From: an uncultured Microbacterium sp.
GTDB lineage: Bacteria > Actinomycetota > Actinomycetes > Actinomycetales > Microbacteriaceae
Direction: 5' to 3'
Assembly (NCBI GenBank): GCA_913774845.1
Contig: CAJYJO010000005.1
Coordinates: 1-51,754, forward strand
Length of the DNA stretch: 51,754 nucleotides
Part shown: positions 4,647-20,685 of the stretch, piece by piece
Numbering within the stretch: the stretch's first letter is position 1
Layout: each line of letters starts with the position of its first letter
Program-made: the position numbers and the translations under genes
The notes under the pieces: generated by a model
Told to the model about the DNA's origin: nothing
What the model saw: the letters and a program-made list of their open reading frames with translations, nothing else
The model's database searches: none

Positions 4647-4662
4647 GCCAACACGCTATCAC

Positions 4663-4710
4663 TTGACACGATCGGTATTCGTGACGAACATTGTTCGCGA
4701 ACGCTGTTCG
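4663..4710 (+). promoter_or_regulatory. promoter with overlapping TetR operator
   Basis: TTGACA at 4663-4668 is a consensus -35 box; 17 bases on lies GAACAT (4686-4691), a weak -10. A 26-bp dyad covers the -10: CGAAC at 4685-4689, the perfect palindrome GTTCGCGAAC at 4693-4702, and GTTCG at 4706-4710, with 3-base spacers. A protein bound there would block RNA polymerase from the NmrA-like gene. The adjacent divergent TetR gene is the likely source. Confidence 0.65.
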
Positions 4711-4723
4711 TGAAGGAGTTGTC

Positions 4724-5560: not shown

Positions 5561-5607
5561 GGGGCGGGTAGGGACTCACGCTCGACGCCTTCACAGGCAT
5601 TCTCTGG

Positions 5608-6299
5608 ATGCCACCCGCCGCCGCCTTGTCATCGCCGGTGCCACTTTTGCTGCTGAACCAACCCGGCGGGTTCGGCACGCGACGGAGGTATCCGCGACTG
5701 GCGGCGCGTGCTCGTGCCGCTGCGGCTGATGGCTTCGCGTCCGCGACGATCGAGCTCCCCGGCACTGGCGGTCGCCCATCACTCCCGGGCTCGGAGCAGG
5801 CGCGCACCGACCTGCGCGCTGCGCTCGCCGCCAGGGAGAAGCCGAGCCCCGACGTCATCGACCGGCTCATCCTGCCGCTGGTGGAAGCAGCGGTACCGGG
5901 GTGACAGGCGACGCTCGATGCGGTGCTCGCCTTGCCCGGGATTGGGTCGAAGGTCGGGTTCTCGGGCGGAGTGATCGCGGTGGGTGTGCGGCTCGCAGCC
6001 GTTGAGCCGCGCATTACGGCGGCGGGGCTGGTTGCCGGGAGCTATGTGCCTCGCTCAATGATGGACGAGGCGCAGCGCGTCAGGATTCCGCTTCACGTGC
6101 TGTTGCAGTGGCATGACGAGGGGAATGATCGTCAGGCTGCGCTGGAACTGTTCGACGCGTTCGGTTCCGCGGAGAAGACGCTGGTGGCCAACATGGGCGG
6201 GCATACGGGTGCGGGGATGATGCGGGGCGGTTCTTTGCGCGGCACCTGGGGAGGGCCTCGCGCGGAGATCGAAGGAGGCTTGAGGCGCCTTCGCAATGA
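5608..6299 (+). pseudogene. alpha/beta-hydrolase (dienelactone-hydrolase-like), broken twice
   Basis: The frame from 5608 encodes a hydrolase-like protein (VPLLLLNQPGGF, then DGFASATIELPGTGGRPSLPG, PLVEAAVPG). It meets TGA at 5902-5904 where a Trp codon is expected, and resumes in the same frame with QATLDAVLALPGIGSKVGFSGG (nucleophile-elbow region), IPLHVLLQWHDEGNDRQAALELFDAFGS and ANMGGHTG. After about 6210 the sense reading shifts frame to GDDAGRFFARHL and stops at 6297-6299. One nonsense and one frameshift lesion make it very likely a pseudogene of a short cytosolic hydrolase of about 220 residues. A GGATGCC heptamer at 5606 is the last one before the 14-kb gap in that motif. Confidence 0.7.
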
Positions 6300-6317
6300 A
6301 GTGAGGCCCTGGCGCCC

Positions 6318-6685
6318 ACGACAGCCAATAACCTGACACTGGTCGAGATCCGGGCGAAGTGCCGTCGCCTGAAGCAGCGTGAGGGTCTGAAGATGGTGGT
6401 CATCGACTATCTGCAGCTGCTCACGAGCGGTAAGCGCGTCGAGTCGCGTCAGCAGGAGGTCAGTGAGTTCTCGCGCGCGCTCAAGCTGATGGCGAAGGAG
6501 CTGCAGGTTCCCGTTGTCGCTCTATCGCAGCTGAACCGTGGCGCCGAGCAGCGCGCTGATAAGAAGCCGGCGCTTTCCGACCTGCGTGAGTCGGGCTCGA
6601 TCGAGCAGGATCCGACATGGTGGTGCTCCTGCACCGCGAGGCCGCGTACGAGGAGTGCTCACCCCGTGCTGGTGCGGGCGATCTT
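6318..6685 (+). pseudogene. dnaB: internal fragment of replicative helicase gene dnaB
   Basis: From about 6318 the translation [40 protein letters not shown] and [12 protein letters not shown]...[10 protein letters not shown] is unmistakably the C-terminal RecA-like domain of DnaB: Walker B region, H3 loop and part of H4. The Walker A half, the N-terminal domain and the C-terminal tail are missing. A one-base loss near 6611 shifts the frame: [13 protein letters not shown] continues in the next frame, and similarity ends soon after. The true dnaB must lie elsewhere. The fragment sits at the left edge of the defence island and may have arrived with it. Confidence 0.8.
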
Positions 6686-6805
6686 TCTTTGCGTGTCAGT
6701 CAGCTCTCCCGCGCGAATAGCGACCAGCTTCTGAGAACTGCTCGTTTCAAGTGTCTGGGACAGAGCTCACGGTCCACTTGGAATGGGCATCTATAGAGTA
6801 CGAGT

Positions 6806-7408
6806 GTGAGCGACCCGCTAAATCTGCCTCAGTTAGTGAACCTCGCCTACAGCGTTGACGATGACAGTGAACATGAGGGTGGTGGAGTGTGCGCGGCTCT
6901 CCTCGGCGATAGCGAAGACGAGATGAGGATCGCCCTCATCAACCAGTATCTGAGCGCGATTCGGATTCTGGCAGAAAGCATCGGAGCGTCGACCAACGAC
7001 TGGACGCTCGGGCGCCCCCTCGTTTTTCTCGCGCACCACCTCGTGGAGGTCTCCCTCAAGGCCGCAATCGAGGGGCGCGGGGCGAGCGTGCCGAGGTCCC
7101 ATGACCTTCCAACTCTGACCGCCGTGGCGCGCTCCGCTGGATGCTTCGAGGGCGTTAGCGCTGAGGCTTCCGCCTGGTACGAGGATCTCTCGGAGCAAGT
7201 GAATTCGATTACAGGAGATGGCACCCCAGGACGGTTCTTCGACGGGAAAGTCGGCGGCGCGGCCATCGATCAGCGCTGGTGCTGCCTCAACGTAGACCTG
7301 ATCGTCGAGGCAACAGGGGCATTCGCTGAGTTGTGCGTTGCTGACGTCATGCGTTGCGAAGCGGAAGCCATTCCCAGTAGAGAAGGCGGTCGGCTCGATG
7401 ACCGATAG
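6806..7408 (+). CDS. HEPN-like protein of the defence island
   Basis: A 200-residue soluble protein beginning at GTG 6806. The central helical part, RPLVFLAHHLVEVSLKAAIEGRGASVPRSHDLPTL (about residues 70-105), resembles HEPN-type domains, in which a helix rich in His/Glu is followed by a conserved HDL and paired helices. Many HEPN proteins are toxins or RNases in defence and toxin-antitoxin systems, but the Rx4-6H catalytic motif is not clear here, so activity is uncertain. It is convergent with the PD-(D/E)XK nuclease at 7516, so the two are not in one operon. Base composition is less GC-rich than in the flanking genes. Confidence 0.5.
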   Translation: MSDPLNLPQLVNLAYSVDDDSEHEGGGVCAALLGDSEDEMRIALINQYLSAIRILAESIGASTNDWTLGRPLVFLAHHLVEVSLKAAIEGRGASVPRSHDLPTLTAVARSAGCFEGVSAEASAWYEDLSEQVNSITGDGTPGRFFDGKVGGAAIDQRWCCLNVDLIVEATGAFAELCVADVMRCEAEAIPSREGGRLDDR

Positions 7409-7492
7409 CCCTCGGCAGCCGCCGGTGTGATGCCTCACGAGATTGGGTTGCCTCACGCGCGCATAATCACCGTTAATCGGCGTAATCCCGCG

Positions 7493-7510
7493 GCCAGCGA
7501 ACTCGCTGGC
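7493..7510. terminator. short hairpin between convergent genes
   Basis: GCCAGCGA (7493-7500) and TCGCTGGC (7503-7510) form an 8-bp perfect stem with a two-base gap. It lies between the 3' ends of the HEPN-like gene and the nuclease gene. There is no T run, so a terminator role rests on position only. Confidence 0.4.
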
Positions 7511-7515
7511 TGTGC

Positions 7516-8385
7516 CTACTGAACAGGTCCTGTAGTGGCACTCGAACCGTCGAAATCGATGACGTCGATCTGGTGCGCAATGAGTGCTGAGGTCACCGCG
7601 CGCATCAGCGCAATGCGAGCGACTTCGATTGCGGCTCGCAAGTGTGGGATTGCGACATAGTCGCCGACCTTCTCCGCGCGAGCCGCCGGAGTTACCGCGT
7701 GTCGCAAATCCCGCACGCACTTTCTGATCGGGGCAATATGCGAACGTGTGCCGGGCACAGACGAGGCGGGCAGGCTGCGGAGCACGAATCTCGCGTCTCG
7801 CGTGTTGAGCTGACCGGTTGCCAGGAACTCCTCGACGTCTCGAATTGCGTCCAGCTGCATCTGATGCGACCACTCGGCGCCCGCGGGATGGGTGAACGCT
7901 GGCCGGTCAAAGACGATGCTCAGTTGGCGCACGTAGACCGCTGTGATGTCGTGCAGAGGCAGTTCTGCCATATACCGCTGGGAGGCGCCGAGGTTATTCA
8001 TCAGGTCCACCGCGATGTCGTCCCATGAACTTACTATGACGAGGAACGGGTGTGTCTTCGTCGCCTTGCGTGCAGCGAGTTGATCGCTAGTGTCTCGTGG
8101 TGCAGTCGTGTAGATGATGAACCGGCTAATGCCTCCCGGGAATGCGGTAGCCTTCAGCGATTCACTCGATACCTCATTTTCCCCGAGTGACTTCACGTGC
8201 TTGCATTGATAGCCGTCCGACGTCCCGTCGGCGCGTGTGATCAACACGTCGACACCGTGCTGCGCCTGCCCGTTGCGTCCGAACCGCTGGACGGTCGCGT
8301 CGGGATGACGATCGCGACTGAGCCGTTCGACGAGCGCTTCGAAGTCCTGATCCGTCGGCGGCAGAGGAAACTTGTACGGTTCCAT
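7516..8385 (-). CDS. PD-(D/E)XK restriction-type nuclease
   Basis: From ATG 8385 the protein has 289 residues. The N-terminal half carries a nuclease core of the kind found in defence NTPases and effectors: FEALVERL, then RFGRNGQAQHGVDVLITRADG with the catalytic Asp in GVDV, DGYQCKHVKSLGE with the Q-x-K element, and later RFIIYTTAPRD and FLVIVSSWDDIAVDL. The C-terminal half, about 130 residues, is helical and unrecognised; it could sense the signal or bind a partner. ATG 8385 has GGAAG before it; ATG 8394 and an upstream start at 8508 are also in frame. Likely role: DNA cleavage in anti-phage defence. No methylase sits next to it, so it is not a simple type II enzyme. Confidence 0.65.
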   Translation of the reverse strand: MEPYKFPLPPTDQDFEALVERLSRDRHPDATVQRFGRNGQAQHGVDVLITRADGTSDGYQCKHVKSLGENEVSSESLKATAFPGGISRFIIYTTAPRDTSDQLAARKATKTHPFLVIVSSWDDIAVDLMNNLGASQRYMAELPLHDITAVYVRQLSIVFDRPAFTHPAGAEWSHQMQLDAIRDVEEFLATGQLNTRDARFVLRSLPASSVPGTRSHIAPIRKCVRDLRHAVTPAARAEKVGDYVAIPHLRAAIEVARIALMRAVTSALIAHQIDVIDFDGSSATTGPVQ

Positions 8386-8778
8386 GTCTTCCATCTTGCG
8401 CGGCGCCTGGGTGCGAAGATTACGCCACACCGTTGCATACCCGATGCCTAGCTCCACGGGGCGGCTGCTTGCCACGTCCTCCGCAGTGCGCAGAGTGCTG
8501 GTTCGCATGGTCGCGTGATGCCCTCGCCTGCTTAAGCCGTGCGGTGAGACGACACGTTGCCGACTACAGGGACTTTCGACTTGCCGACGACCCGAGGTGG
8601 TGGACCGCGCGAATCAGTACTGCAGGTCCCGAGGTGCTTCGTAGGCGCCCAGAATGGAGCCAAAGGTGCGCTGATGTATGGCCACCTGGGCGTACTTCTT
8701 CGCAACCGACCGCGGCGGATACCTACGAGAGAGTGCGGTGATGCTCGGGCATCGAGTGCCGTCAGCTCCTTCGCCAAC
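8386..8778. other. about 390 bases without a supported gene
   Basis: Apart from a possible N-terminal extension of the nuclease gene (to 8508), I see no reading frame here with convincing protein features and no clear hairpin or repeat. Confidence 0.4.
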
Positions 8779-9198
8779 TCACGAAGCAGACGCGAGCCGT
8801 TCAAGTTCCTTTCGAATGCAGTCGAGCCGCGCCACGTTCACGCTGTCCAAGTTGTCCATGACGATTAGCGCCCGGTTCTCGTAACTCGTGGCGAGAGTTC
8901 CGTCACCTAGGAGGTAGTCCACTCCATGAATGGCGTTGCCGCGATCGCTCATCCAAAACCTGGCAAGCCGAAAAGCCCCGCGCTCGCGCTCACCAGCACC
9001 CACGACCTCCACGGTCTCTAGGTCGGGATATTCAGCTGCCTTTTGCGCGTCCAGTGCTGGCTGAACCAGTTCGCCGATCTCTGAGAGCAACTTGGCTCGC
9101 CGGCTCACTTCTTCGCGCCGTCGCACTTCGTCAAACTCATTAACCGCATCTCGCTTGCCGCGCGTTCGCTCTCGAGCTACCCGATCCGCATCGTTCAT
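8779..9198 (-). CDS. hypothetical protein, N-terminal coiled coil
   Basis: ATG 9198 opens a 139-residue frame. Residues 1-50 are highly charged and helical (VARERTRGKRDAVNEFDEVRRREEVSRRAKLL), a likely coiled coil. The rest looks like a small alpha/beta domain: FRLARFWMSDRGNAIHGVDYLLGDGTLATSYENRALIVMDN. I do not recognise the family. It is on the same strand as the nuclease at 7516-8385 but about 390 bases upstream of it. An in-frame start at 9267 is possible but lacks support. Confidence 0.45.
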   Translation of the reverse strand: MNDADRVARERTRGKRDAVNEFDEVRRREEVSRRAKLLSEIGELVQPALDAQKAAEYPDLETVEVVGAGERERGAFRLARFWMSDRGNAIHGVDYLLGDGTLATSYENRALIVMDNLDSVNVARLDCIRKELERLASAS

Positions 9199-10020
9199 GA
9201 ACCCAAGGTTCGCACGAGGCGGGTGGCTTACGGAACTGGGCTGCCCGCATGTGGAGGAGTCCCCCAAGGCCCGCTGAGCCGGAGAGGCAGCAATCGGAGT
9301 GACTACATCGATACGTCATTCCTGGCGGAAGCTACGCGACTTGGCCTCATCACAGTCCCGCAATGGCCCGCATCGGCCTGCTACGTCTTACCGTACATGT
9401 CACGGTGGACCGCGGGCGGACGGGGTCCATGACCTGTGCGCCGTGCACGGTCAGCAGTGCCCGCTCGGCTCATATGGCACCGCTGTGGAGAAACACGATC
9501 GCCGAGCCATTCCCCGCCGTCGCGGCCGGGCGCATCGCTCGGCGCGCGCCCAGATCACGGTAGATGCAGACGATCCCCACGCGCCGTACCCGCGGCCTCT
9601 CGAGAGCCCCCCGCCGGACTTGTACCATCTACGCGTGCGTCGCCTAGACCGTCTGGTCTTCGAAGCGAAGCCATCCGAGGGGCCGGTCACAGGCCTCCTG
9701 TCGACGCCTAAAGGCTGCGGGCAGTACGGTTCGGAGCCTTTCGACGAGATGTCGCTCTCCTCCTGGAAAGTGTTCATGCCGGAGAGCTTCGTGAGGCGAG
9801 CGGTCGGGTTTTGTGGACCACAGTCGTCGATCCGTTGGCGACGGCCACAATGATGCGCACCTTCGTCGAACGGTCGCGGGCGGTTCGATCCGCAGCCTCC
9901 CTTTCAACGTCCCACCGCTTTTCGAAGTTGCTCGCCAAACAAAGGTCGCCCGGGAAAGTCGCCGAGAAATGGATCCAGGGCTCGCGGTGATCGCGGGACT
10001 GAGGAAACTTCTACCGCTGC
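9199..10020. other. about 0.8 kb without a recognisable gene inside the island
   Basis: Open frames exist on both strands, but none has clear domains, a good ribosome-binding site or consistent codon use. Short stretches look protein-like in changing frames, for example minus-strand LVERLRTVLPAAFRRRQEACDRPLGWLRFEDQTV near 9650-9750. This pattern suggests a decayed gene rather than non-coding DNA. Confidence 0.35.
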
Positions 10021-10278
10021 TCAGACCTCGCGTGCGACCGGCCTCGCGATGTACACCTTGTGTTTCGCGAACCGATCGCCGATGGCTGGGACGAAGCGAG
10101 GGCGATTCTCGTCAAGCAGCAGGGTCAGCGCGTTCGTCCGTTGAGCTCCGGCGACGCAAGGGAGGTAGGTCGGATCGATGCGATCACGATCAACCAGCAG
10201 GAGTTCTCCGACTCCGAACCAAGCGGGGTACTCAGAGCACGGAGCCAGCGCTGCTGAGGCGAGACCGGAGACACGACC
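10021..10278 (-). pseudogene. in-frame 3' gene remnant directly after res
   Basis: After the res stop (10281-10279) the same frame stays open for 85 more codons, to TGA at 10023-10021. It reads as well-formed protein: YPAWFGVGELLLVDRDRID, then PTYLPCVAGAQRTNALTLLL, DENRPRFVPAIGDRF, KHKVYIARPVAREV. There is no ATG or GTG near its 5' end, so it is not a normal gene. It may be the tail of a deleted gene or a read-through extension of Res. The GVGELLLVDRDRID part recalls the nucleotide-binding fold of E1/ThiF proteins, but only weakly. Confidence 0.4.
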
Positions 10279-13275
10279 TTAGAGTCCCCACGATCCGGGT
10301 ACTGCCCTTGCGTAGTCTTCGATTCCGATCGCTTGGAAGTGGCGTTTGGCGGACTTGATTTTGGCGAGTTCGGTGGGGCGGAGCTTCGAGTCGTCGAGGG
10401 TGCTCTTCGTCTCGCGGATCATGTAGATCCGGTCCTTGCCGTCCTCCTGCTTGATGATCGCCCAATCAGGGTTGTACGGGCCGACGGGGGTGTCGACCTT
10501 GAACTTGGCGGGCAATTTCATGAAGAGCTTGATGTCCTCGCGCGAGTCGAGCAGCTCCGCGAACTGGCGCTCCACATCGGAGTCGAAGATGACGTAATCG
10601 AAGTCGGTTTTCTGAGTGTGCTGCACCTTATACATCTGGTCGAGGAAGCGTTCCTTTTCCTCCTCACCGTCCCGCTGCAGCTCGCGTAGCTCGTAGACCG
10701 AGCCTGCGATTCGCTCGTACTGGATTCCGTCGACGACAATCTTGGCCAGTTCGCGCTGCAGCACTCGTTTGGTCATCGCAGTGAAGTCGTTCGGGTTGCC
10801 GATGAACTCGCTCAGCCGCTCGCTGCCGACCAGGATGTCGACGATAGTCTTGCGGGTGAGGGAGGTCGCCTCCTGCAGCTCCGTGATGACGTCGGGCAGA
10901 TCGTAGCTGCCCTTGAGATCGGCCGAGCGGGTGCCGAGTTCTTCACCCTTGGCGCCGCCTCTCAGCACCTTGACTCCGGCGCGGGTGACCTGGATGCGCA
11001 GCGCGTCGATCTTCGGCGCTTCACGGATCGCCCGGATAGCGTTCTCGATCAGCTGGTCACGACCGACCCGGACGCGGTAGGTGGTCTTCTGGCTGATCGT
11101 CTCCCAGAACTCCTCGAACTCCGGGTTCGCGTAGAGCTGCTTGTTAAGCACGCGCGGCTGACGCTTGCTGACCGGCTTGACGTACTTGCCGATGTTGGCG
11201 CGCTCAACCAGCTCGATGATGATCGACTCAGCCCAGACGAAGTCGACGGGCAGCGCGAGGTCGAAGCCAAGCTGGTTCGGCTGGAACTTCGAGGTGACCG
11301 CGCCGTCCTTATCGATGAAGCCCTTGTCCTTGAGGTGCTCCCACACCAGCACGGATCGCTGGTAGCCGAACTGGTCGTCCATGAGCGCACCGTTCTCGTC
11401 CTGCAGCGGAATCTTCGAGAACTCCGCTCGGCGCACCCGGCCGATCTCGACCCCGGCGTCCTTGTACTCGCGCTGGAGCGCATCCGCGAACTTCGTGTAC
11501 GACTCGTTCGCGACGACAGTCAGCGTCGCGACGCCACGGTCAGCAACACGGGTGTAGCCGTGGTCCGTCTTTGCGACGGGGAGGCGCAGACCACGTCCGA
11601 GGGTCTGGCGACGCTCAGTCTCGGCACCCATCTCACGCAGGGTGCAGATCTGGAAGACGTTCGGGTTGTCCCAGCCCTCGCGCAGAGCAGAGTGACTGAA
11701 GATGAACCGCACGGGCTCGTTCTCGTCGAGCAGCCGTTCCTTCTGCTGCATGATCAGTTCGTAGGCGTCGTCATCGGCCTTGGTGGTGCCGGACGAGTCT
11801 TGGAAGGTGGTTGTCTTGCCGCGTTTGATCTGGGAGAAGTACGCCCGGCGCAGTTCACTCGGCGCCTGCGGTAGCAGCTCCTGGTAGCGTGTATACTTCG
11901 CACGCTCCTCGACGAAGACCTCGTCGAACCACTGCACGAAGTCACCGCTCGCGTCGTCGTTGTTTGTGCCGTCACCCAGGTAGCTGGCGACCTTATCGAC
12001 GAAGAAGAGGCTGAGCACCTTGATGCCCTTGGCGCGGAGCATCGATTCCTTGCGCAGGTGCTCGCGGATGGTCTCGCGGATCATCTCCTTGTAGATCGCG
12101 CCGGCCGATGCGCCGATGCTCTCGCCCTCGTACAGGAACCCGTGGGTGGTGAGGTCGACGTAGGCAGGCTCGATGCTCATCTCGTTGATGCGCCAGCCCT
12201 CATAGATCGGATTGTTCGTCAGGCGCGCATCCGACAGCTCCTGATGCTGCTTCACGCTCACGACCCGGCGCTCGAGCGAACCATCGGCCTTGCGGAACGA
12301 CAACTCCAGCCGGGCCGACCACGACGGCTCCCGCCGCACCTCAACCAGCTTGATGTACGGCGTCGCATCTGCACCCTGCTGGGCCACCTCAGCGACGACG
12401 ATCTGCTTCACCAGAGCGAGATCGTGGGCGTCGACCGGGTCGAGCCGGTAGACGACGTTGCGCTGCTTCTTGTGCGTCGCGCTGTAACGCAAGGTGAAGA
12501 CGGGATCGAGTTCACCGACCGCCGACTGCGATAGCTGCGACTCCATGTTCTGCGGTTCGTCCATGATGACAACCGGGTGGGTCGCCTTCAGGTAGTCGAT
12601 CGGGCGCAGCCCGTTCAGCTTGTCGCGGGTCTGGTGGATGATACGGGTGTTCGCGTTGCCACGGATCGAGTCGATCGTCATAATCAGGATCTGCACGTTC
12701 GTGGACGTTGCGAACGACTGGACCTCTTCAGCGCTCTTGCCGCTATAGATCGAGGCATCGAAGGTGATGCCCTGCGGCTTGTAGAGGTTCTCGAAGTGCT
12801 CGCGCATGAGCCGGATGCTCGTGCTGACGCCCTCACGGATCGCGACGCTCGGCACGAGGATCACGAACTTCGTGAAGTTGTAGCGAACGGCCAGATCGAA
12901 GATCGTGCGCAGGTAGACATACGTCTTACCCGTACCGGTCTCCATCTCAATGTCGAAGTCGAGCGCGGTGCCCGCAAGCGACGACGCAACCTCAAGGCCG
13001 TTCCGATCCTGCACACGCTGTAGGTTCGCGAGGATCAGGTCACGATCGAGCACCAGGCTGTTGCCGACCGCGCCGACCTCCTGTGTGAGGTCGATGTCGA
13101 GCGCGGCCTGATCCGAATCGGGTAGTACCGCCGCACCACGCAAGGTCGTGACCAGCTTCTCGGCGTCCTTCGGCTGTCCGTCGAACAGGTCGACCACCGA
13201 GGCGGTCGCATCCAACTGATACGGCTGACTGGCGTCGAACTGAAATCCTGATCCGCTAGCTGTGCTGTTCTTCAT
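10279..13275 (-). CDS. res: type III restriction endonuclease subunit Res
   Basis: A 998-residue superfamily 2 helicase-nuclease, the expected length for type III Res. Walker A is METGTGKT at residues 111-118. The Walker B box is DEPQ (239-242, after VVIM), and motif III is RYSAT (263-267). Late helicase motifs are SALREGWDNP and QTLGRGLRLP. The C-terminal PD-(D/E)XK nuclease shows D937 in YNPDWA, then E955 and K957 in RETKS. Res uses ATP to move or switch on DNA between two inversely oriented unmethylated sites and cuts about 25 bp away. It starts two bases after the mod stop, so translation is probably coupled. No lesion is seen. Confidence 0.93.
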   Translation of the reverse strand: MKNSTASGSGFQFDASQPYQLDATASVVDLFDGQPKDAEKLVTTLRGAAVLPDSDQAALDIDLTQEVGAVGNSLVLDRDLILANLQRVQDRNGLEVASSLAGTALDFDIEMETGTGKTYVYLRTIFDLAVRYNFTKFVILVPSVAIREGVSTSIRLMREHFENLYKPQGITFDASIYSGKSAEEVQSFATSTNVQILIMTIDSIRGNANTRIIHQTRDKLNGLRPIDYLKATHPVVIMDEPQNMESQLSQSAVGELDPVFTLRYSATHKKQRNVVYRLDPVDAHDLALVKQIVVAEVAQQGADATPYIKLVEVRREPSWSARLELSFRKADGSLERRVVSVKQHQELSDARLTNNPIYEGWRINEMSIEPAYVDLTTHGFLYEGESIGASAGAIYKEMIRETIREHLRKESMLRAKGIKVLSLFFVDKVASYLGDGTNNDDASGDFVQWFDEVFVEERAKYTRYQELLPQAPSELRRAYFSQIKRGKTTTFQDSSGTTKADDDAYELIMQQKERLLDENEPVRFIFSHSALREGWDNPNVFQICTLREMGAETERRQTLGRGLRLPVAKTDHGYTRVADRGVATLTVVANESYTKFADALQREYKDAGVEIGRVRRAEFSKIPLQDENGALMDDQFGYQRSVLVWEHLKDKGFIDKDGAVTSKFQPNQLGFDLALPVDFVWAESIIIELVERANIGKYVKPVSKRQPRVLNKQLYANPEFEEFWETISQKTTYRVRVGRDQLIENAIRAIREAPKIDALRIQVTRAGVKVLRGGAKGEELGTRSADLKGSYDLPDVITELQEATSLTRKTIVDILVGSERLSEFIGNPNDFTAMTKRVLQRELAKIVVDGIQYERIAGSVYELRELQRDGEEEKERFLDQMYKVQHTQKTDFDYVIFDSDVERQFAELLDSREDIKLFMKLPAKFKVDTPVGPYNPDWAIIKQEDGKDRIYMIRETKSTLDDSKLRPTELAKIKSAKRHFQAIGIEDYARAVPGSWGL

Positions 13276-13277
13276 GC

Positions 13278-15173
13278 TCAGGCTGTCCAGAGCTCAATGC
13301 CCTTGCTCTTTGCGAGCTGGGACAGGTTGGTTTTGAGTTCGTCGTCACCCTGGAAGGCGTCCTCGAGCACGATGATCCGCGTCGGAGACTCGTCAACGAG
13401 TACACGGAGCTGCTCGAGCGTCGGCTTGACGTGCTCGTTCAAATAGGCCAGCAGGGCGATGTCGCCGTCGCGATCCCGCACAAGACGGACGTCGAGGCCA
13501 CCGACCTCAGCAGGTGAGATCGCCTCGGACAGCGAGTAACCCTGCTTGAGCAGGATCTCACTGAGTAACTCATCGGCCGAGGCATCGTCAGTCGCACTGT
13601 CACGAAGACTGAGCAGGTGCTGCTGCAGCGCGTCCTCTTCGACGTCGCTCGACAGCCGCCACTTGGCGAAGTTCGTGTCGGAAAGCTTGTACGCACGGAA
13701 ACCGGTATCGAGAGCCACATCTGGCGCCGCGAGCTGGTTCTCTAGGTTTCCATTGATCTCGTTTCCCGCCAGTTTGAGTCGCTCGCGAGAGACCTCCGAG
13801 ATACTGGCGAACCCTGCTCGCCGAGCTTCTGAGTCGTCAGGGGTTGGCTCCGGAAGCTGTACTTGGATGTGACGGCGTCTTCCTCCGTCCTCAGCGTTCA
13901 GGCGCATAACAGCGTGACCCAGAGTTCCCGACCCGGAGAAAAAATCAAGGATTACTGAGTCCTTCTCTGAACCGATCCGGAGAAGGGTCTCGATCAAACC
14001 AACTGGCTTCGGAGTTTCGAACGCAGCAACACCTCCGAAGAGTCGTTTGAGTTCATTCTTCGCGCTCTCATTCGTGCCTGCTTCTGCGGCGAAGAGCATC
14101 GTCTCGGGCGTAAGTCCGCGTTCCTTCGCATCCAGATAGGTTTTAATACGCGGCACACCATTGCCATCTTTGCCAAACCAGATACGTCCCTCTGAGATGG
14201 CTTGCTGCATCGCCTCCTGCGTATATGCCCAGCAACGACCGCTGGGCAGCTCGTGATGCTTCCCATTGGGAGCCACTAAAGTATAGAACTGCGAAGCTGT
14301 CGCATGACCAGCTTGCGCAGTAGCGGGATCAGACTTCCAGGCACCACGCGGATCGTTGTCGGGATTACCGTAACTTGCCAACGCCTTGCCAGTCATCGGG
14401 AGCTGGGAAAGCGCACGCTCTCTGACTGCGGACTTTCGGTAGCAGTAAATAGTGTCGTGCCGGTACGAGACCGTTTTTCGGTTCTCTCGATTCGTCCGTT
14501 TCTCCCACACGAACGTCGCAACAAAGTTATCTTCTCCAAAGATCTCGTCACAGACCCTACGGAGATGGGCAGACTCGTTGTCGTCGATCGAGATGAAGAT
14601 CACGCCATCGTCCGTCAGCAGGTTCCGCGCGAGCTTGAGGCGCGGATACATCATGTTGAGCCAGTTGGAGTGATAGCGGCCCTCGGTCTCGGCGTTCGTC
14701 GTGACCTTCTTGCCCTCCTCGTTGACCTGGCGCGTCCACTCGAGGTAGGTGTCGAGGCCCTCCTTGTAGTCGTCCGGGTAGACGAAGTCCTTGCCGGTGT
14801 TGTACGGAGGGTCGATGTAGATCAGCTTGATCTTGGCGTGGTAATGCTTCTGCAAGATCTTGAGCACTTCGAGGTTGTCGCCCTCGATGAAGACGTTCTG
14901 CGTCGTGTCCCAGTCCTTCGAGTTGTCGAAGTCGGGCTTCAGCGTCGCCGTGGTCGGCTCCTGCGCCGCTCGCAGAGCGCGCTTCTTTCCGGGCCAGAAG
15001 AGTCCGAAGCGTTCGCTGCTGTCGGCTGCGTCACCGTCGAGCAGTTCCTTGAGCTTCTCGACATCCACCTTGCCGTCGGCGATGGCCTCGGGAATCAGAT
15101 CGGCAAGCTGCGCTGCCAGCTCGGTCTGGAAGTTCGGAGTACTGGATGGTGTTTCGTAGATCTCGTCAGTCAT
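13278..15173 (-). CDS. mod: type III DNA adenine methyltransferase Mod
   Basis: A 631-residue beta-class N6-adenine methyltransferase, normal length for type III Mod. The catalytic motif DPPYNTG is at residues 121-127 and the AdoMet-binding motif FFSGSGT at 411-417. The roughly 285 residues between them hold the target-recognition region. The C-terminal part (from about 540: EVGGLDVRLVRD..ALLAYLNEHVKPT..TRIIVLEDAF) is the region that contacts Res. It methylates one strand of an asymmetric site and gives specificity to the complex. It lies between the SNF2 helicase (61 bases upstream) and res on the same strand. The target sequence cannot be read from the protein. Confidence 0.93.
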   Translation of the reverse strand: MTDEIYETPSSTPNFQTELAAQLADLIPEAIADGKVDVEKLKELLDGDAADSSERFGLFWPGKKRALRAAQEPTTATLKPDFDNSKDWDTTQNVFIEGDNLEVLKILQKHYHAKIKLIYIDPPYNTGKDFVYPDDYKEGLDTYLEWTRQVNEEGKKVTTNAETEGRYHSNWLNMMYPRLKLARNLLTDDGVIFISIDDNESAHLRRVCDEIFGEDNFVATFVWEKRTNRENRKTVSYRHDTIYCYRKSAVRERALSQLPMTGKALASYGNPDNDPRGAWKSDPATAQAGHATASQFYTLVAPNGKHHELPSGRCWAYTQEAMQQAISEGRIWFGKDGNGVPRIKTYLDAKERGLTPETMLFAAEAGTNESAKNELKRLFGGVAAFETPKPVGLIETLLRIGSEKDSVILDFFSGSGTLGHAVMRLNAEDGGRRRHIQVQLPEPTPDDSEARRAGFASISEVSRERLKLAGNEINGNLENQLAAPDVALDTGFRAYKLSDTNFAKWRLSSDVEEDALQQHLLSLRDSATDDASADELLSEILLKQGYSLSEAISPAEVGGLDVRLVRDRDGDIALLAYLNEHVKPTLEQLRVLVDESPTRIIVLEDAFQGDDELKTNLSQLAKSKGIELWTA

Positions 15174-15233
15174 TCAGGTAATTCTCTCTCATGAGATTAA
15201 CAATTTGCGTCAGGTTTGTGCATGGCCCGGGGT

Positions 15234-18134
15234 CTATGTGGCGATCCGCCAGCGAATCGTGAACAAATGCTCCGTCTCCTGGGTTCCCTGGAGCGATTGC
15301 TCGATCAGCTCGAGGTACTTGTCGGCCTCGGCCCGGAGCTTCTTGCGTGTCTCGCGGAAATCCTCGTCGGCCTCCTCGGCACGCTGCTCCCACTTCCGGG
15401 CTTCCTTCTTGAGCCGTAGCTGCTCCATCGGATCGTCGGCCTGCCGAGCGAGCTTGCGGGCCTCCTTCTCCTTGGCCCGGTAGTCGCGGATGGCACCCTC
15501 GTGCTCAGCCTTGCGATCCTGCTGGCTTCGGTAGAGCAGTTCCTCCTGCTGGTCGTAGTAGCGGGAGTTGCGGCCCTGGACTTCCTTCTCCAGCTCAGCC
15601 CGTCGAGTGTCGAGATGCGGCATGAAGCGGCTCCCGTCGATCGCCACGGGCCCTGTTCCGACGTCGATGCAGGCGAGGTCGAGGATGTCTGCGACGTACT
15701 CCTCGTCGAGCCACCGCCCGTCGTCAGTCAGTGCGCCGGCGAGCATGTAGGACTCGGAGACGTCCTCCTCGCGCGCCTTCATGCGGAAGGTCGCGACGCT
15801 GACGGTGAGCTCACCGCTGGTGCTCTCCAGCGTGCGGATCGCGCTGCTGACGCGCTTCGACTGGCTTAGCGAGAAGGTCAGCTCGCGTGCCGGGGTGTCG
15901 TGGGTCTTGGCGGTCTCGACGACGTGCTGGGCCAGCGGGCTCGCGTATCGGTACTGGTGGGCGTTCTCCAGCGGCTGGGACTTGAAGAAGTAGCGCCCGG
16001 TCGACGCATCCCTCACGGGCGACTCGTTCAGCACGAAGGTGCGCCCGTCGCCCTCGAAGGTGGCGTGCTGGTCGAGTTCGTGCCGGGTTATCGCGAGCAG
16101 CAGGCGCTCGAACTTGTTGAGCACCTCGCCGGACTGCGTGTCGTAGGCCTTGAGGCGATCCTGGACGTGGGGGTCGAGGTTGTCGAAGACCTTCGCCTTG
16201 GCGCTGGCCATCTCGCGCGAGATCTCGCCCGCGTACTGCGCCTCCAGCTCCTTGAACGCGGAGTCCAGTTCGTCAGCGGTTCTGCAGCGGGTGAGGATGT
16301 CGCTGATCGTCTTCTCGAAGTCCAGCCCGTCCTCGATCGCGCCGAGCACCTCGTCGCTGGCGCCAAAGACGCTGGAGAACAGTTGAAACTTGTTCGTCAG
16401 CAACTCCAGGATGCGCTGCTCGGCGATGTTGCCTTTATTCGAGAAGTTCACGACGACGACGTTGTGCTTCTGCCCGAAGCGGTGCACACGGCCAATGCGC
16501 TGCTCGACCCGCTGCGGGTTCCAGGGCAGGTCGTAGTTGACGAGCATCGAGCAGAACTGCAGGTTGATGCCCTCTGCCGCAGCCTCGGTCGCGATCATGA
16601 TCGTGCCCTCAGCGCGGAAGTAGTCCACGAGCGCCTTGCGACGATCCACGGCGGCGATGCCGGTGATCAGGTCGCCGTCTCTGTTCTTCTCCAGCCACGC
16701 CTGGTGGATCGCGGTCTGCTCCGGCCCGTTGTTCGAACCGTTGAATAGAACGAGTCCCTTGCCGCGACCGGCCTCCCGCAGCGAGCGCGCGATGTACTCC
16801 TGCGTCTTGGTCGAGTCGGTGAAGATGATGGCCTTCTCAGGAGCACCCAGCTCACGCAGCCGCTCGAAGCCCAGATCGAGCGCCTCACCAAGCTTGACCG
16901 CCTTCTGGTTCTCGGTGATCGAACGAGCCAGAGCCGCGTACTCGCGCAGCTCCGCAACCTCGGCATGCATCGCCTCCAGCAACGACTCGTCTAGCGGCAA
17001 CGACGACGCCCGGGCACCTGTGCCCGCGCCGTCGATCTCGTCGGCCTCCTCCAGTTCCTCGCTGGTGATCTCGTCGTCGACAGTGAAGTCTGCCGCCACC
17101 AGACCGCCGCGGCCGTCGCGGCGCTGCCCGGCGGCAACCTCATCGGCCAGACGATTCGCGATGTTCTCCAACGTGCTCGCGACCGCGTAGGTCGACGAGC
17201 CGAGACGCCTGCGGATGATCAGGGCAGAGAGGTGGCGCTGGCTCCCGGCGAAGGCGAACAGCTCGTCGCGCTGCAGGTAGTCATTCACCAGGTCGTAGAG
17301 ACGTGCCTCGTCCGGTGACGGAGTGAACTCGACCGTCAGCGGCAGTCGCTTGGTGAAGTGGATGTACTTGTCGGCATCGCGCCGCAACGTGCGCTTCGAG
17401 ACGGTGGCGACACGATCCACCAGATCGTCATCTCCGCCGAGGTCTCGGTTCTTGACGTACCGTTCCCGGAAGGCATCGAGTGAGTAGAAATAGCCAGGGT
17501 CAAAGATCGAGACCAGCCCGTACAGCTCCTCCAGCTTGTTCTGTAGCGGCGTGGCGGTCAGCAGCACCGTCTTGTGGGTTCCCCGCACGATGTGCGCGAC
17601 TGCCTCGGCAGCCTTTGTCTTGCCTGTCCAGTAGTTGCGCAGCCGGTGCGCCTCGTCCGCAACCACCAGATCCCACGCCTTGAGCAGTGAGGTCTCGTGC
17701 CGCAGCGCGAACTCATAGGAGCAGATCAGCACCTGCGCCGAACGACCGACCGCAGCAGCAGCAAGCAGCGCGTCCTTCAACTTTGGGTCGAGGATGGCGG
17801 ACGGGATGAGGAACTTCTCGTACAGCTCCTGCTGCCACTGTTGGCGCAGGCTCGACGGGGCGACGATCAGGATGCTGCGGCGGCGTTCGGCCCAGTACTG
17901 CGAGATGACGATGCCCGCCTCGATCGTCTTTCCGAGGCCCACCTCATCAGCGAGGATCACGCCCGGCAGGAACGGTGTCTGCAGAGCGAACAGGGCGGCG
18001 TCGATCTGGTGCGGCTTCGGCTCCACCTGGGCGTCGAACAGGAGCCCGGCGAGCTTGCCGACGTGATCGTTGGCGTAGCTGCGCTGGAGCTCGTGCGCGT
18101 AATACTTCGCCTGGTAATCAGTAAGTCTTGTCAC
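15234..18134 (-). CDS. SNF2-family DNA translocase of the restriction locus
   Basis: A 966-residue Swi2/Snf2 ATPase. Walker A is GLGKT at 66-70 within LADEVGLGKTIEAGIV; DEAH is at 160-163 and LLTATPLQ at 191-198. The helicase C-terminal lobe has LPWNPQRVEQRIGRVHRFGQ near residues 530-555. Residues about 860-940 are strongly charged, a likely long coiled coil. SNF2 proteins with this RapA-like N terminus occur in several defence loci (for example DrmD of DISARM), where they are thought to remodel or track along DNA. GTG 18134 follows a GGGGGGA ribosome-binding site. The gene is upstream of mod and res and probably cotranscribed with them. Confidence 0.88.
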   Translation of the reverse strand: MTRLTDYQAKYYAHELQRSYANDHVGKLAGLLFDAQVEPKPHQIDAALFALQTPFLPGVILADEVGLGKTIEAGIVISQYWAERRRSILIVAPSSLRQQWQQELYEKFLIPSAILDPKLKDALLAAAAVGRSAQVLICSYEFALRHETSLLKAWDLVVADEAHRLRNYWTGKTKAAEAVAHIVRGTHKTVLLTATPLQNKLEELYGLVSIFDPGYFYSLDAFRERYVKNRDLGGDDDLVDRVATVSKRTLRRDADKYIHFTKRLPLTVEFTPSPDEARLYDLVNDYLQRDELFAFAGSQRHLSALIIRRRLGSSTYAVASTLENIANRLADEVAAGQRRDGRGGLVAADFTVDDEITSEELEEADEIDGAGTGARASSLPLDESLLEAMHAEVAELREYAALARSITENQKAVKLGEALDLGFERLRELGAPEKAIIFTDSTKTQEYIARSLREAGRGKGLVLFNGSNNGPEQTAIHQAWLEKNRDGDLITGIAAVDRRKALVDYFRAEGTIMIATEAAAEGINLQFCSMLVNYDLPWNPQRVEQRIGRVHRFGQKHNVVVVNFSNKGNIAEQRILELLTNKFQLFSSVFGASDEVLGAIEDGLDFEKTISDILTRCRTADELDSAFKELEAQYAGEISREMASAKAKVFDNLDPHVQDRLKAYDTQSGEVLNKFERLLLAITRHELDQHATFEGDGRTFVLNESPVRDASTGRYFFKSQPLENAHQYRYASPLAQHVVETAKTHDTPARELTFSLSQSKRVSSAIRTLESTSGELTVSVATFRMKAREEDVSESYMLAGALTDDGRWLDEEYVADILDLACIDVGTGPVAIDGSRFMPHLDTRRAELEKEVQGRNSRYYDQQEELLYRSQQDRKAEHEGAIRDYRAKEKEARKLARQADDPMEQLRLKKEARKWEQRAEEADEDFRETRKKLRAEADKYLELIEQSLQGTQETEHLFTIRWRIAT

Positions 18135-18267
18135 GCTTGTCCCCCCGGCTTACCTCAACCATGCCTTACGTGTGAAAACTCCGCAGGGATTCTGGGCCGA
18201 GATCGTGTACCCGTCTGATATCACGGTCGGTCGACGCCGCGTCGCGGAGCGTTTCTCTGCATGTTTC

Positions 18268-19338
18268 TTAGGCCGTCGCGCTCTCGTCGATCACCCAGGA
18301 CCGACGCAATGGGATGAGCTCCCGGATTGCGTCAGGCATGACCTCATAGTGCTTCAACAAGCGGTCGACTAATTCCTCGGCGTCCCAGACGGCAACTCGG
18401 AGACGCTGTGCGTCGACTCTGGCCTGGGCCGGTGCCGTGAGGCCACCCATAGCCACCAGCAGACCGTGATCTGCCTGATGTTGACCGACAACGCCTCCCA
18501 GTTGGTCGAGCACCTCGGATCCGACGCGGCTGGTCTGCGACTTCACCTGGACGATGATCGTTGGAGCCGAGATGCCGAGCACGCCCGAACCAGCGATGAT
18601 GTCGATGCCGCCGTCCGCACCCTTGGGTGGGACTTTGCATGTCATCCCCTCGGCTCGCAGAATCTCGGCGACGAGATCTTGGAGCGCGTGACCCGCGAAC
18701 TTTTCCTTGACGAGGGTGAGGATGCGATCCCGCGAGTACCGGATGATGTCCTGCCCGTTGCTGGCAATCGCCTCATCCGTATCGACGACATCGTCCTCCG
18801 TCTTCGAGATCGAAAGCGGGATTCCCGGTCGTGCACCAGGGTCCGTTTCCGCGCCCCGAAGCACTCGTCCCAGTCGGTAAGCGGCATCATTGCGGCTGAT
18901 CTGCACCACCGTGCTGAAGGCGCCGAGTGAGTAGAGCAAGTCCTGATTGATGGCCGTCCGCGCGACGTCCGGGCGCTTCCAGTCGACGGCCCTGACGTGA
19001 TTCAGGACGTCTGCGCCGGGAAGATACTTGTACGCTCCCGTGACGATACCGAAGGCGAGCTTGCCAACGCTCTTCAGGGGAAGTACGACGATGTCACCGA
19101 CGGACATCCGGTTCGCAAAGGCGTTGAGCTGCGCGGCGTAGTTTGCGACCGCCTTCTCGCTCTTCTCGGGCATGGTCGGGGAGAGAAGCGCCCGCATGGC
19201 GGGCAGATCCTTCGCCACGGAGAGATCGCCGACCTCGCGGAAATCAACCGCCGTGTAGCCGCTCTCGAGCATCCAGTTGTCGAACGTGTAGTTCTTCGAT
19301 CCTCTTACAAGCCAGGCCCGCGGCTCCGTCGTCCCCAT
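18268..19338 (-). CDS. Mrr-type restriction endonuclease with EVE-like N terminus
   Basis: A 356-residue protein. The N-terminal part (AWLVRGSKNYTFDNWMLESG, then VDFREVGDLS, MSVGDIVVLPL, LAFGIVTGAYKYLP, to about residue 125) resembles EVE/PUA-like modified-base reader domains. The C-terminal Mrr domain begins near 215 (HALQDLVAEILRAEGM) and has GADGGIDI with D246 and IIVQVKSQ with Q264 and K266, the catalytic Mrr triad region. Mrr enzymes cut methylated or otherwise modified DNA. It is 133 bases upstream of the SNF2 gene on the same strand and may be the first gene of the locus, adding attack on modified phage DNA to a methylation-guided system. Confidence 0.78.
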   Translation of the reverse strand: MGTTEPRAWLVRGSKNYTFDNWMLESGYTAVDFREVGDLSVAKDLPAMRALLSPTMPEKSEKAVANYAAQLNAFANRMSVGDIVVLPLKSVGKLAFGIVTGAYKYLPGADVLNHVRAVDWKRPDVARTAINQDLLYSLGAFSTVVQISRNDAAYRLGRVLRGAETDPGARPGIPLSISKTEDDVVDTDEAIASNGQDIIRYSRDRILTLVKEKFAGHALQDLVAEILRAEGMTCKVPPKGADGGIDIIAGSGVLGISAPTIIVQVKSQTSRVGSEVLDQLGGVVGQHQADHGLLVAMGGLTAPAQARVDAQRLRVAVWDAEELVDRLLKHYEVMPDAIRELIPLRRSWVIDESATA

Positions 19339-19421
19339 CGTTTGAGCCTATCGACTGAGCCCCCCAGAATTGGGGGTGTGGCGTCTGATCCCGGGCCGCA
19401 CCCCGCCGCGTCACCCCGCAG

Positions 19422-19490
19422 CTATCGAGCACTCCAGGTCAGACTGAAGCGGTCGATCAGCATGCCAGAGCCAGCGCTCCAGACGGAACT
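19422..19490 (-). pseudogene. C-terminal remnant of a VOC (PhnB-like) gene
   Basis: Minus-strand codons from 19490 read SSVWSAGSGMLIDRFSLTWSAR and stop (TAG, 19424-19422). This is the last strand of PhnB-like VOC proteins and resembles the end of the intact paralogue at 22405-22860 (WSAGFGMLTDRFGVTWSA). No upstream part of the gene is visible. The remnant marks old host DNA just outside the right side of the defence island. Confidence 0.6.
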
Positions 19491-19557
19491 GAATGAAGAC
19501 GATGCCGCCCTCGACATGCGTGACGGGAAGGCTGCGGATCAAACCGAGCAGGACGGC

Positions 19558-20685
19558 TCACCCGCCCGCAAACCACCCATTCACCCCAAGCGCCGACCCC
19601 GCCCGCGGCAGATACTGATCGAAGTACACCCGCGCCACCAACTTCCGCCGGCTCCCCACACCTGCCTTGTCGAAGATCGACTTGAGGTGGTCCTGCACCG
19701 TGTAGGGCGACACGTGCATCGAGGCGGCGATCTCCTTCGTGTCGGCGCCGCGGAGCACCGCCCCGACCACTTCGCGCTCGCGAAGAGTGAGCGTGAACGC
19801 CGCGGCCACGATGTCGACGACCTCCTGCGGACGCGCCTCCTCGATCGTCACCACCACGTCGCCTGCCCGGTCGCCGACGCCGCCGATGGGTGCGGCGTGC
19901 AGCACCAGCCACACGCCGTCGGGCGTGCGCGTGCGGATGCGTGGCATCCGGTCCATCGCTCCTGATGCGAAGCGGCGCGCGCCGCCGATGAGCGCCTGGA
20001 TGTAGCTGAGGGGGTCGGTGCCGGGGGTGCTGAGCTGAGCGAGCCGTTCTTGCGCGCCGGGGCTCGACTGCACGACGCGACCGGTCGCGTCGATGATGAG
20101 CACGGCGGGGCCGGTCGGTTGTGCGGCCTCGCGTGAGGCGACCTGCGACAGCAGGCCGGTGCGGATGCCACGCGTCAGGGCCGGGGCAATCTCGGTCAGC
20201 AGGGCCAGCTCGCCGGGGTCGAAGACGGCGTCGTCCGTGCCGCGGAGGATGGACAGCGTCGCCCAGACGCCGCCCCGATCGGCGAACACGACGCGCGCCT
20301 CGTCGGCGTACCCGAAGCGGGGGAGCACGAGGTCGGCCATGCGCTCGAGGCGGTCGACCTGGCCGCCCGTGGCGGAGTGGATTCCCACGGCGACGCTGCC
20401 CGCCGAGACCATCTCGTCGTAGTGCGTCGGGTCGGGTTCGCCGCCGTACTCGATGCGCGCCCAGGCCACGTCGGACTCGTTGCGGCCCAGCAGATCGCCG
20501 AGCTTGTACGTGCGCGAGATCAGGGAGGTCGCGGGGTCGGTGCTCGAGAAGCAGCCCGCCACGAAGGGGATGACGCCCAACAGCGTGGCGGCGGACTCCG
20601 CCATGAAGTCCGCCAGTGGAAGACCGGCGCGCGACAGCACGTCGATGTCGCTGCGCGCTCGTCCGGCGGCCAGGGCGGTGACCAT
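19558..20685 (-). CDS. LuxR-family transcriptional regulator
   Basis: A 375-residue regulator starting at ATG 20685 (MVTALAAGRARSDIDVL). The C terminus is a GerE/LuxR helix-turn-helix: LTLREREVVGAVLRGADTKEIAASMHVSPYTVQDHLKSIFDKAGVGSRRKLV. The N-terminal 200 residues look GAF-like (ADEARVVFADRGGVWATLSILRG), and residues about 215-300 look PAS-like (GPAVLIIDATGRVVQSSPGAQERL). It lacks the phospho-acceptor receiver domain, so it probably senses a small molecule directly. It is divergent from an FAD-dependent oxidase gene at 20826, the likely target. Confidence 0.85.
   Translation of the reverse strand: MVTALAAGRARSDIDVLSRAGLPLADFMAESAATLLGVIPFVAGCFSSTDPATSLISRTYKLGDLLGRNESDVAWARIEYGGEPDPTHYDEMVSAGSVAVGIHSATGGQVDRLERMADLVLPRFGYADEARVVFADRGGVWATLSILRGTDDAVFDPGELALLTEIAPALTRGIRTGLLSQVASREAAQPTGPAVLIIDATGRVVQSSPGAQERLAQLSTPGTDPLSYIQALIGGARRFASGAMDRMPRIRTRTPDGVWLVLHAAPIGGVGDRAGDVVVTIEEARPQEVVDIVAAAFTLTLREREVVGAVLRGADTKEIAASMHVSPYTVQDHLKSIFDKAGVGSRRKLVARVYFDQYLPRAGSALGVNGWFAGG

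Follow-up and report, generated by a model that had tools for sequence, protein, structure and literature searches.

A type III restriction-modification cassette with an SNF2 gene adjoins a probably independent Mrr-type nuclease gene in a Microbacterium defence hot spot

Do four defence genes that follow one another on a contig of an uncultured Microbacterium sp. form a single restriction system, or do separate systems lie side by side? The stretch analyzed here, referred to as the window, comprises 51,754 nucleotides of contig CAJYJO010000005.1 (GenBank assembly GCA_913774845.1; 3.37 Mb in 55 contigs). Four uninterrupted open reading frames (ORFs), all on the minus strand, encode in the order of transcription an Mrr-type nuclease, an SNF2 protein, a type III methyltransferase (Mod) and a type III restriction enzyme (Res). 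The original prediction, made from this sequence alone, read them as one locus with three layers of defence. Our analysis points to a different answer, which we consider highly probable: two independent units stand next to each other in a defence hot spot, an SNF2-containing type III cassette (10279–18134) and an Mrr gene (18268–19338).

The Mrr gene, which lies outside the cassette, starts with ATG and encodes 356 amino acids (aa) with a Pfam Mrr_cat match (E 1.4e-21); in PADLOC it matches PDC-S02, a candidate single-gene defence (407 bits). A gap of 133 bases (18135–18267, minus strand) forms the junction of both units and is followed by the cassette. Its first gene (15234–18134, GTG start, 966 aa) encodes an SNF2/RapA-type ATPase with SNF2-rel_dom (E 5.3e-31) and Helicase_C domains, for which PADLOC gives DrmD as the best model (583 bits). 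The mod gene (13278–15173, ATG start, 631 aa) carries N6_N4_Mtase and scores 648 bits with MTase_III, and res (10279–13275, ATG start, 998 aa) combines a superfamily 2 (SF2) ATPase with a PD-(D/E)xK endonuclease (ResIII; RE_endonuc, E 7.4e-34; REase_III, 890 bits). The expected motif strings were found in Mrr (GADGGIDII, IVQVKSQ), SNF2 (DEVGLGKT, DEAH, TATPLQN, QRIGRVHRFGQ), Mod (DPPYN, FFSGSGTLG) and Res (GTGKT, DEPQN, QTLGRGLR, YNPDWA, RETK). Domain and defence libraries thus bear out the identities first proposed for the four genes, apart from the EVE part of the Mrr protein, and the genes are intact as claimed, with motifs in place and no internal stops. The gaps measure 133, 60 and 2 bases in transcription order, so that the earlier figures of 133 and 2 stand and that of 61 is corrected. 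All four genes are under purifying selection in comparison with close relatives. Nonsynonymous (dN) and synonymous (dS) substitution rates are 0.024 and 0.25 for SNF2 against a Kocuria copy, and 0.059 and 1.09 for Mrr against its closest orthologue (genome G601). Across seven relatives, dN/dS of SNF2 ranges from 0.07 to 0.14 (about 0.1 or less in six, 0.14 in the seventh); for Res it is 0.05–0.21.

The cassette is a recurrent arrangement. Scanning the SNF2 protein against 84,980 species genomes yielded at least 588 relatives, of which the 80 best were taken; with 25 more from searches of the family, order and phylum they make up 105 distinct SNF2 loci, two duplicate loci having been dropped. 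Genes in these loci were called by a greedy ORF method that produces some antisense calls and can hide genes. Because it had hidden the Mrr-family ORFs of one locus (L126), all ORFs of at least 100 aa were used in classifying the 105 loci. Mod and Res lie on the SNF2 strand in 45 of the 49 fully flanked loci, that is, those with 7.5 kb on each side, and two more (L099 and L100) have Mod with a divergent Res-like gene of 859 aa; in L099 this gene is a ResIII-type helicase, and Mod scores 1023 bits with MTase_III. Among the best 80 loci, 58 have at least 7.5 kb downstream: both partners are present in 54, Res only in one and neither in three (L057, L058 and L077), and every Mod and Res cluster member there shares the SNF2 strand. 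The 56 loci that are not fully flanked include 32 with both partners (L126 among them), five with Mod only, one with Res only and 18 with neither. SNF2 relatives occur in Actinomycetota, Pseudomonadota, Bacteroidota, Verrucomicrobiota, Nitrospirota, Planctomycetota, Acidobacteriota, Chloroflexota, Bacillota, Armatimonadota, Elusimicrobiota, Deinococcota and other phyla; within the family of the window they are rare (nine of 299 genomes, its own included). The SNF2 motor motifs are invariant across 40 aligned relatives, and the solved structure nearest by sequence is RapA (E 5.8e-35 with the single sequence, 3.5e-53 with a profile). At the level of sequence, SNF2–Mod–Res is a conserved unit. 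The original prediction had allowed that mod-res with SNF2 might be an existing arrangement, and the counts support this more strongly than it was put.

The link was also found from the side of Res. A Res-anchored survey of the order gave 33 loci besides the window, 31 of them not cut at a contig end, and 27 of these 31 have an SNF2 gene. It is present in all 13 loci whose Res is at least 61% identical to that of the window and, in a longer and diverged form, in all 13 with a Res of 34–39% identity (62–138 bits to the SNF2 profile; two incomplete); one of the other five has it. The loci with 34–39% Res (L137–L149) represent a parallel SNF2-type III arrangement, in which a second SNF2 lineage of about 1060–1280 aa, where complete, is accompanied by one or two Mods. 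Most of them have a small gene before Mod, with a DUF4391 domain in the one tested. Gene order is Mod-Res-SNF2 in three loci (L009 from Schaalia, L133 and L134), with the clustering kept. Three Res lineages accompany the one SNF2 family, their exemplars best matching the REase_III models PDLC03647, 03648 and 03654. At least eight changes of Res lineage are needed on an SNF2 tree of 59 rows, compared with a least possible number of two and a mean of 23.8 after shuffling; SNF2 has therefore mostly been inherited with its Res, yet has met new ones.

The limits of the cassette and the exchange of its recognition domain can be read from close relatives. In blastn comparisons (hits of at least 80 bases with more than 72% identity), similarity extends from positions 10278–10325, the end of res, to 18116–18135, the start of SNF2, and not beyond, so that matches end before the 133-base gap. 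Such sharp edges were seen with Kocuria, Agromyces, Microbacterium and others, and the cassette (10279–18134) is probably mobile. A scan for promoters or terminators that might separate the two units did not discriminate: within the 133 bases between them no sigma-70-like match turned up, and counts were near the shuffled expectation. Mod has its DPPYN motif at residue 121, a variable block at 226–396 and FSGSG at 412, the order that defines type III methyltransferases. The block, encoded at 13986–14498 on the minus strand, corresponds to the target-recognition domain (TRD) and is swapped between relatives: mean identity to 19 of them is 12–25% over residues 226–375 and 41% over 376–400, compared with 76–94% over 1–200. 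Identity is also low at 451–500 (36–43%) and 201–225 (50%), so the swapped stretch may exceed the TRD. SNF2 and Res are mostly at least 70% identical along their length (lowest blocks 51% and 56%, respectively). Eight pairs among the 20 Mods share a TRD at more than 40% identity (64–94%), in seven cases above the rest of the protein, which fits TRD exchange. The TRD of the window is unlike those of all 19 aligned relatives, with the rest of the cassette kept, and the middle of mod has a GC content of 0.546, the lowest of the stretches measured. Since TRDs are swapped and SNF2 and Res retained, the latter two would serve many specificities.

In classical type III restriction-modification, as the original prediction correctly had it, the system consists of Mod and Res only. 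The cassette shares with the EcoP15I prototype the order of DPPY, TRD and FSGSG in Mod, and a Res that joins an SF2 motor to a C-terminal PD-(D/E)xK domain. It differs in having a conserved third gene, for a RapA-type SNF2 ATPase, which leads or sometimes ends the operon, and in that further genes often stand between SNF2 and Mod, none of them in the window. The cassette is a variant of type III and not the classical two-gene form. The variable block of its Mod lies close to the place of the EcoP15I TRD, given as aa 263–384 in an excerpt of PMC4490356.

The Mrr gene presents a different picture. Its protein (P0001) matches PDC-S02 over nearly the whole length (residues 8–352), and D242, D246 and K266 of the nuclease motif are invariant in 20 aligned sequences. 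Against solved structures, a profile matched the nuclease half weakly (4f0p, which we take to be MspJI, E 0.0082; 4oc8, AspBHI, E 0.05) and yielded no convincing relative for the N-terminus, where Pfam EVE gave no match at E ≤ 1 either. An EVE-like N-terminus, a putative reader of modified bases, is plausible from the conserved pattern; of the label "EVE-like/Mrr", library matches back the nuclease half. None of 26 other P0001-related loci has the SNF2, Mod or Res of the cassette adjoining (nearest weak matches 7–8 kb off; two of the loci, L113 and L159, are cut off by a contig end at the Mrr gene). The window copy, 133 bp before an SNF2-type III cassette, thus differs in its setting from the other members. 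For 94 SNF2 loci the sequence reaches at least 700 bp upstream; in 60 of them a gene was called on the same strand no more than 400 bp ahead of SNF2, and in no case does this neighbour belong to the Mrr family. A search of all ORFs placed Mrr-family members within 9.5 kb in two of the 105 loci (L038 and L126), L038 being the one such case among the 49 with full flanks. In 396 genomes of the order, the one analyzed included, 26 have an Mrr relative and 34 a Res relative; three others have both, where about 2.1 would be expected by chance (25 and 33 of 395).

The closest orthologue, 89% identical, is in a genome of the same genus (G601), and the DNA match is limited to 18267–19352. There the Mrr gene is followed after 115 bp by hsdM and hsdR on the same strand (L165, 80–7014), with a putative ORF of at most 589 aa in the place of HsdS overlapping hsdM, and its other side is a chromosomal flank equivalent to 22.4–27.7 kb of the window, partly rearranged. 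The same Mrr gene accordingly precedes a type I system in one strain and the SNF2-type III cassette in the other. On a Salipiger abyssi plasmid, a 39% relative has the S gene of a type I system on one side and the R gene on the other (L186, 3817–10226), and same-strand HsdR and HsdM relatives are found near Mrr in L105, the nearer 129 bp away. In all, four of the 26 loci have HsdR or HsdM relatives, with weak scores in two (59 and 67 bits), and a Corynebacterium plasmid has no restriction-modification (RM) gene annotated near its Mrr relative. Members of this Mrr family are occasionally associated with RM systems, but not with this cassette. The Mrr gene appears to be a separate unit, one that predates the cassette or arrived apart from it.

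Several observations weigh against this two-unit reading or its generality. The SNF2 loci are the best matches to one query and so over-represent its relatives. Two of the 49 fully flanked loci have no type III partners: in L057 a shortened SNF2 stands without a partner, and L178 lacks them as well, so that SNF2 is not exclusive to type III systems. In L058 and L077, the 10 kb downstream contain neither Mod nor Res. Conversely, four of the 31 Res-anchored loci (L150 and L152–L154) are Mod-Res pairs without an SNF2 match even at E 10, so type III chemistry in itself does not require SNF2. On the Mrr side, a gene of another kind with Mrr_N and Mrr_cat domains abuts Res on its 3' side in L038 (19683–20594; 26% identity to P0001 over 94 residues). 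L126 has an incomplete Mrr_cat ORF (1–471) that shares the strand of SNF2 and ends 1.8 kb ahead of that gene, and another incomplete Mrr-family ORF (19701–20000) 6.3 kb after Res. Two loci with the longer SNF2, L138 and L149, also hold an Mrr-type gene (55 and 63 bits). L038 and L126 tell against a complete separation of Mrr and cassette; no repeated arrangement was seen.

The content of L178 (8215–17281) deserves a separate remark: a diverged SNF2 gene is followed there by one for a 1366-aa methyltransferase nearer to DrmMI or type IIG, and then by a GajB-like helicase gene, possibly another SNF2 system.

How does the cassette relate to other defence systems with SNF2 proteins? Class 1 DISARM comprises DrmD, DrmMI, DrmA, DrmB and DrmC, and the MZB domain (formerly DUF1998) is the mark of DrmB. 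In both DISARM and the cassette an SNF2 ATPase is paired with a DNA methyltransferase, and DrmD is the best PADLOC fit of the SNF2 protein; unlike in DISARM, the methyltransferase fits type III Mod models. The SNF2 protein scores below both NCBIfam cut-offs for DrmD (581.7 versus 950 for DrmD_b; 248.2 versus 610), and among 296 genomes of the phylum all seven matches listed miss the DrmD_b cut-off. MZB (PF09369) had no match in the whole genome, with eight of 14 control genomes positive, and DISARM is ruled out on the low DrmD score and the lack of this domain. BREX is excluded because PglZ (PF08665) likewise had no match in the genome, two of the 14 controls being positive. The original prediction had noted an SNF2 protein that recalls DrmD without its DISARM partners, and no BREX genes such as pglZ; both statements are borne out, genome-wide for the MZB and PglZ domains. 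SNF2 proteins of BREX, ARMADA, Dpd and Zorya (BrxHI/II, ArmA, DpdE and ZorD) belong to the same broad RapA/SNF2 family, and their models score lower with the protein of the window (BrxHI 206, DpdE 161 and ZorD 109 bits). An excerpt of PMC12458937 describes ArmA as BrxHII-like with a RapA-type domain.

With these results, other explanations of the locus can be weighed. That Mrr, SNF2, Mod and Res act together as one three-layer system would suit four intact genes on one strand with short gaps, the Mrr-type gene directly after Res in L038 and the Mrr-family ORFs of L126, as well as the nucleases and type IV genes, such as GmrSD and YhcG, that other cassettes carry between SNF2 and Mod. We nevertheless regard it as very unlikely. 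No P0001-related locus beyond the window adjoins the cassette, Mrr-family genes are near SNF2 in just the two loci named, the co-occurrence of both families is near chance, and the closest orthologue precedes a type I system; as a conserved unit, the four-gene system is rejected on these Mrr neighbourhood counts. The gene-neighbourhood test that the original prediction proposed therefore had a split outcome, SNF2 being conserved beside mod-res and Mrr not, and the joint arrangement it had singled out did not hold up. A looser version, in which the P0001 family stands beside restriction systems, is true now and then, for type I systems and not for the cassette.

That looser version has a mechanistic form compatible with two units, in which Mrr would be a portable companion of whichever RM system stands behind it: the RM system would catch unmodified DNA, Mrr would catch DNA modified by phage or by foreign methylases, and the RM cassette would be exchanged over time. 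The G601 locus, with hsdM and hsdR in place of the cassette at a similar distance from Mrr and a shared chromosomal flank, speaks for such a role, as do the Salipiger plasmid and L105. Against it stand the small number of loci with HsdR or HsdM relatives, the Corynebacterium plasmid and the tendency of defence genes to cluster anyway, and we consider it rather unlikely. The opposite extreme, that SNF2 stands next to mod-res through mere clustering in defence islands or as a remnant of DISARM, seems most improbable. The region is a hot spot and the best PADLOC model is DrmD, but the association in 45 of 49 loci persists in different phyla, gene orders and Res lineages and also on plasmids, the DrmD_b cut-off is missed, the genome has no MZB domain, and SNF2 dN/dS is low.

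How the cassette would work can be proposed from the families of its proteins. Type III restriction enzymes, as in EcoP15I, cut when two complexes meet. Mod would read a short DNA sequence through its exchangeable TRD and methylate it, and Res, an ATP-driven nuclease, would cut DNA with unmethylated sites upon such an encounter. SNF2 would be the constant third component, most likely a RapA-type translocase on double-stranded DNA that clears proteins from the DNA on which Mod and Res act, or remodels that DNA in some other way, and thereby enables Mod-Res to scan, to encounter a second complex and to cleave. Mrr, the second unit at the hot spot, is predicted from its family to be a nuclease, probably a modification-dependent one. 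That SNF2 matters for the system at all we hold to be very likely. That it clears or remodels protein-covered DNA for Mod-Res is our first choice among possible roles, a tentative one with slightly less than an even chance. For this step a rival is possible, though doubtful: SNF2 might be a safety or licensing factor that removes Res or Mod-Res from unmethylated or stalled sites of the host, or that links restriction to transcription in the way RapA associates with RNA polymerase. Among solved structures RapA is the closest in sequence, and the existence of Mod-Res pairs without SNF2 fits a regulatory role.

Many cassettes hold additional genes. In 31 of 53 loci, extra same-strand genes of at least 150 aa separate SNF2 from Mod, and the representatives tested include AIPR, RecF-like ATPase, Fic, DUF2130, GmrSD and YhcG types, which suggests a platform that takes on further effectors. 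Loci with this slot filled include L023, L051, L083, L021 and L034, with a RecF/SMC-like ATPase and a SoFic-type Fic protein among the contents. SNF2 is found in 50 plasmid records, 32 of which are rated conjugative; all four plasmids inspected (from E. coli, Salmonella, Deinococcus and Cupriavidus) carry, in this order, SNF2, with or without extra genes after it, a methyltransferase and a DEAD/DEAH box protein. On three plasmids a small helix-turn-helix (HTH) gene directly precedes SNF2 (L181, 8766–9011; L182, 6232–6432; L184, 8792–8992), and in the records from E. coli and Salmonella the two genes overlap; the HTH genes perhaps encode controller proteins of the operon. An HTH gene before SNF2 is not a general rule, with a mixed profile detecting one in just six of 103 loci. 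Nor is there a dominant upstream family: 40 same-strand neighbours of about 120 aa or more matched 52 Pfam families (25 displayed), none of them in more than three neighbours.

The place where the two units lie is a defence hot spot. It corresponds to a variable stretch of lower GC content (6248–19553, no strand assigned), with values of 0.58–0.64 in the parts of 6.2–19.5 kb versus 0.68 and 0.71 outside, whose flanks are common to genomes of the same genus. In one of these (G726), both flanks of the window (up to 6247 and from 19554) lie on a single contig; the sequence that separates them measures about 19 kb, compared with 13.3 kb here, and consists in part of rearranged flank genes. In a second (G684), 20.7 kb separate the flanks, which correspond to the window up to 5568 and from 21733 on. 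Their contents include a protein with HTH, Mrr_cat and AAA domains, helicases of the Schlafen group and a 2158-aa protein with HEPN, DUF4011, AAA and MTES_1575 restriction endonuclease (REase) domains. Seven ORFs tested beside res, at 4553–10358 of the window, had no Pfam match.

The open-access literature, covered in excerpts, contained no description of SNF2-Mod-Res as a system, with closed-access papers and REBASE outside this scope. Within those excerpts, such genes are listed together without comment for one Cronobacter element (PMC12757443), operons that combine MORC with type III-like or SWI2/SNF2 helicases are reported (PMC2292703), SWI2/SNF2 and Mod/Res are named in figure legends (PMC11090510), and the role of the DrmD-like SNF2 in DISARM is left open (PMC9142583). 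A bolder generalization, which we offer as speculation that is less likely to be right than wrong, is that the cassette represents a widespread, unnamed type III subtype with an obligatory RapA-type third subunit, indifferent to the target and kept through exchange of TRDs and Res lineages and through variable effectors (AIPR, RecF-like ATPase, Fic, GmrSD and YhcG), and that PDC-S02 Mrr genes serve as portable guards, with the RM system behind them, be it type I or this type III, being exchanged.

For genome annotation, the PADLOC model that labels the SNF2 protein of the window "DrmD" where no DISARM exists serves as a warning. The swap of the RM partner next to Mrr in a sister genome is a natural experiment on the pairing of modification-dependent with classical restriction. 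If the reading of the cassette is true, an SNF2 motor would be a standing third part of type III restriction over a large part of the bacterial tree as well as on conjugative plasmids, and the role of DrmD-like SNF2 proteins in defence would become testable in a simple three-gene system.

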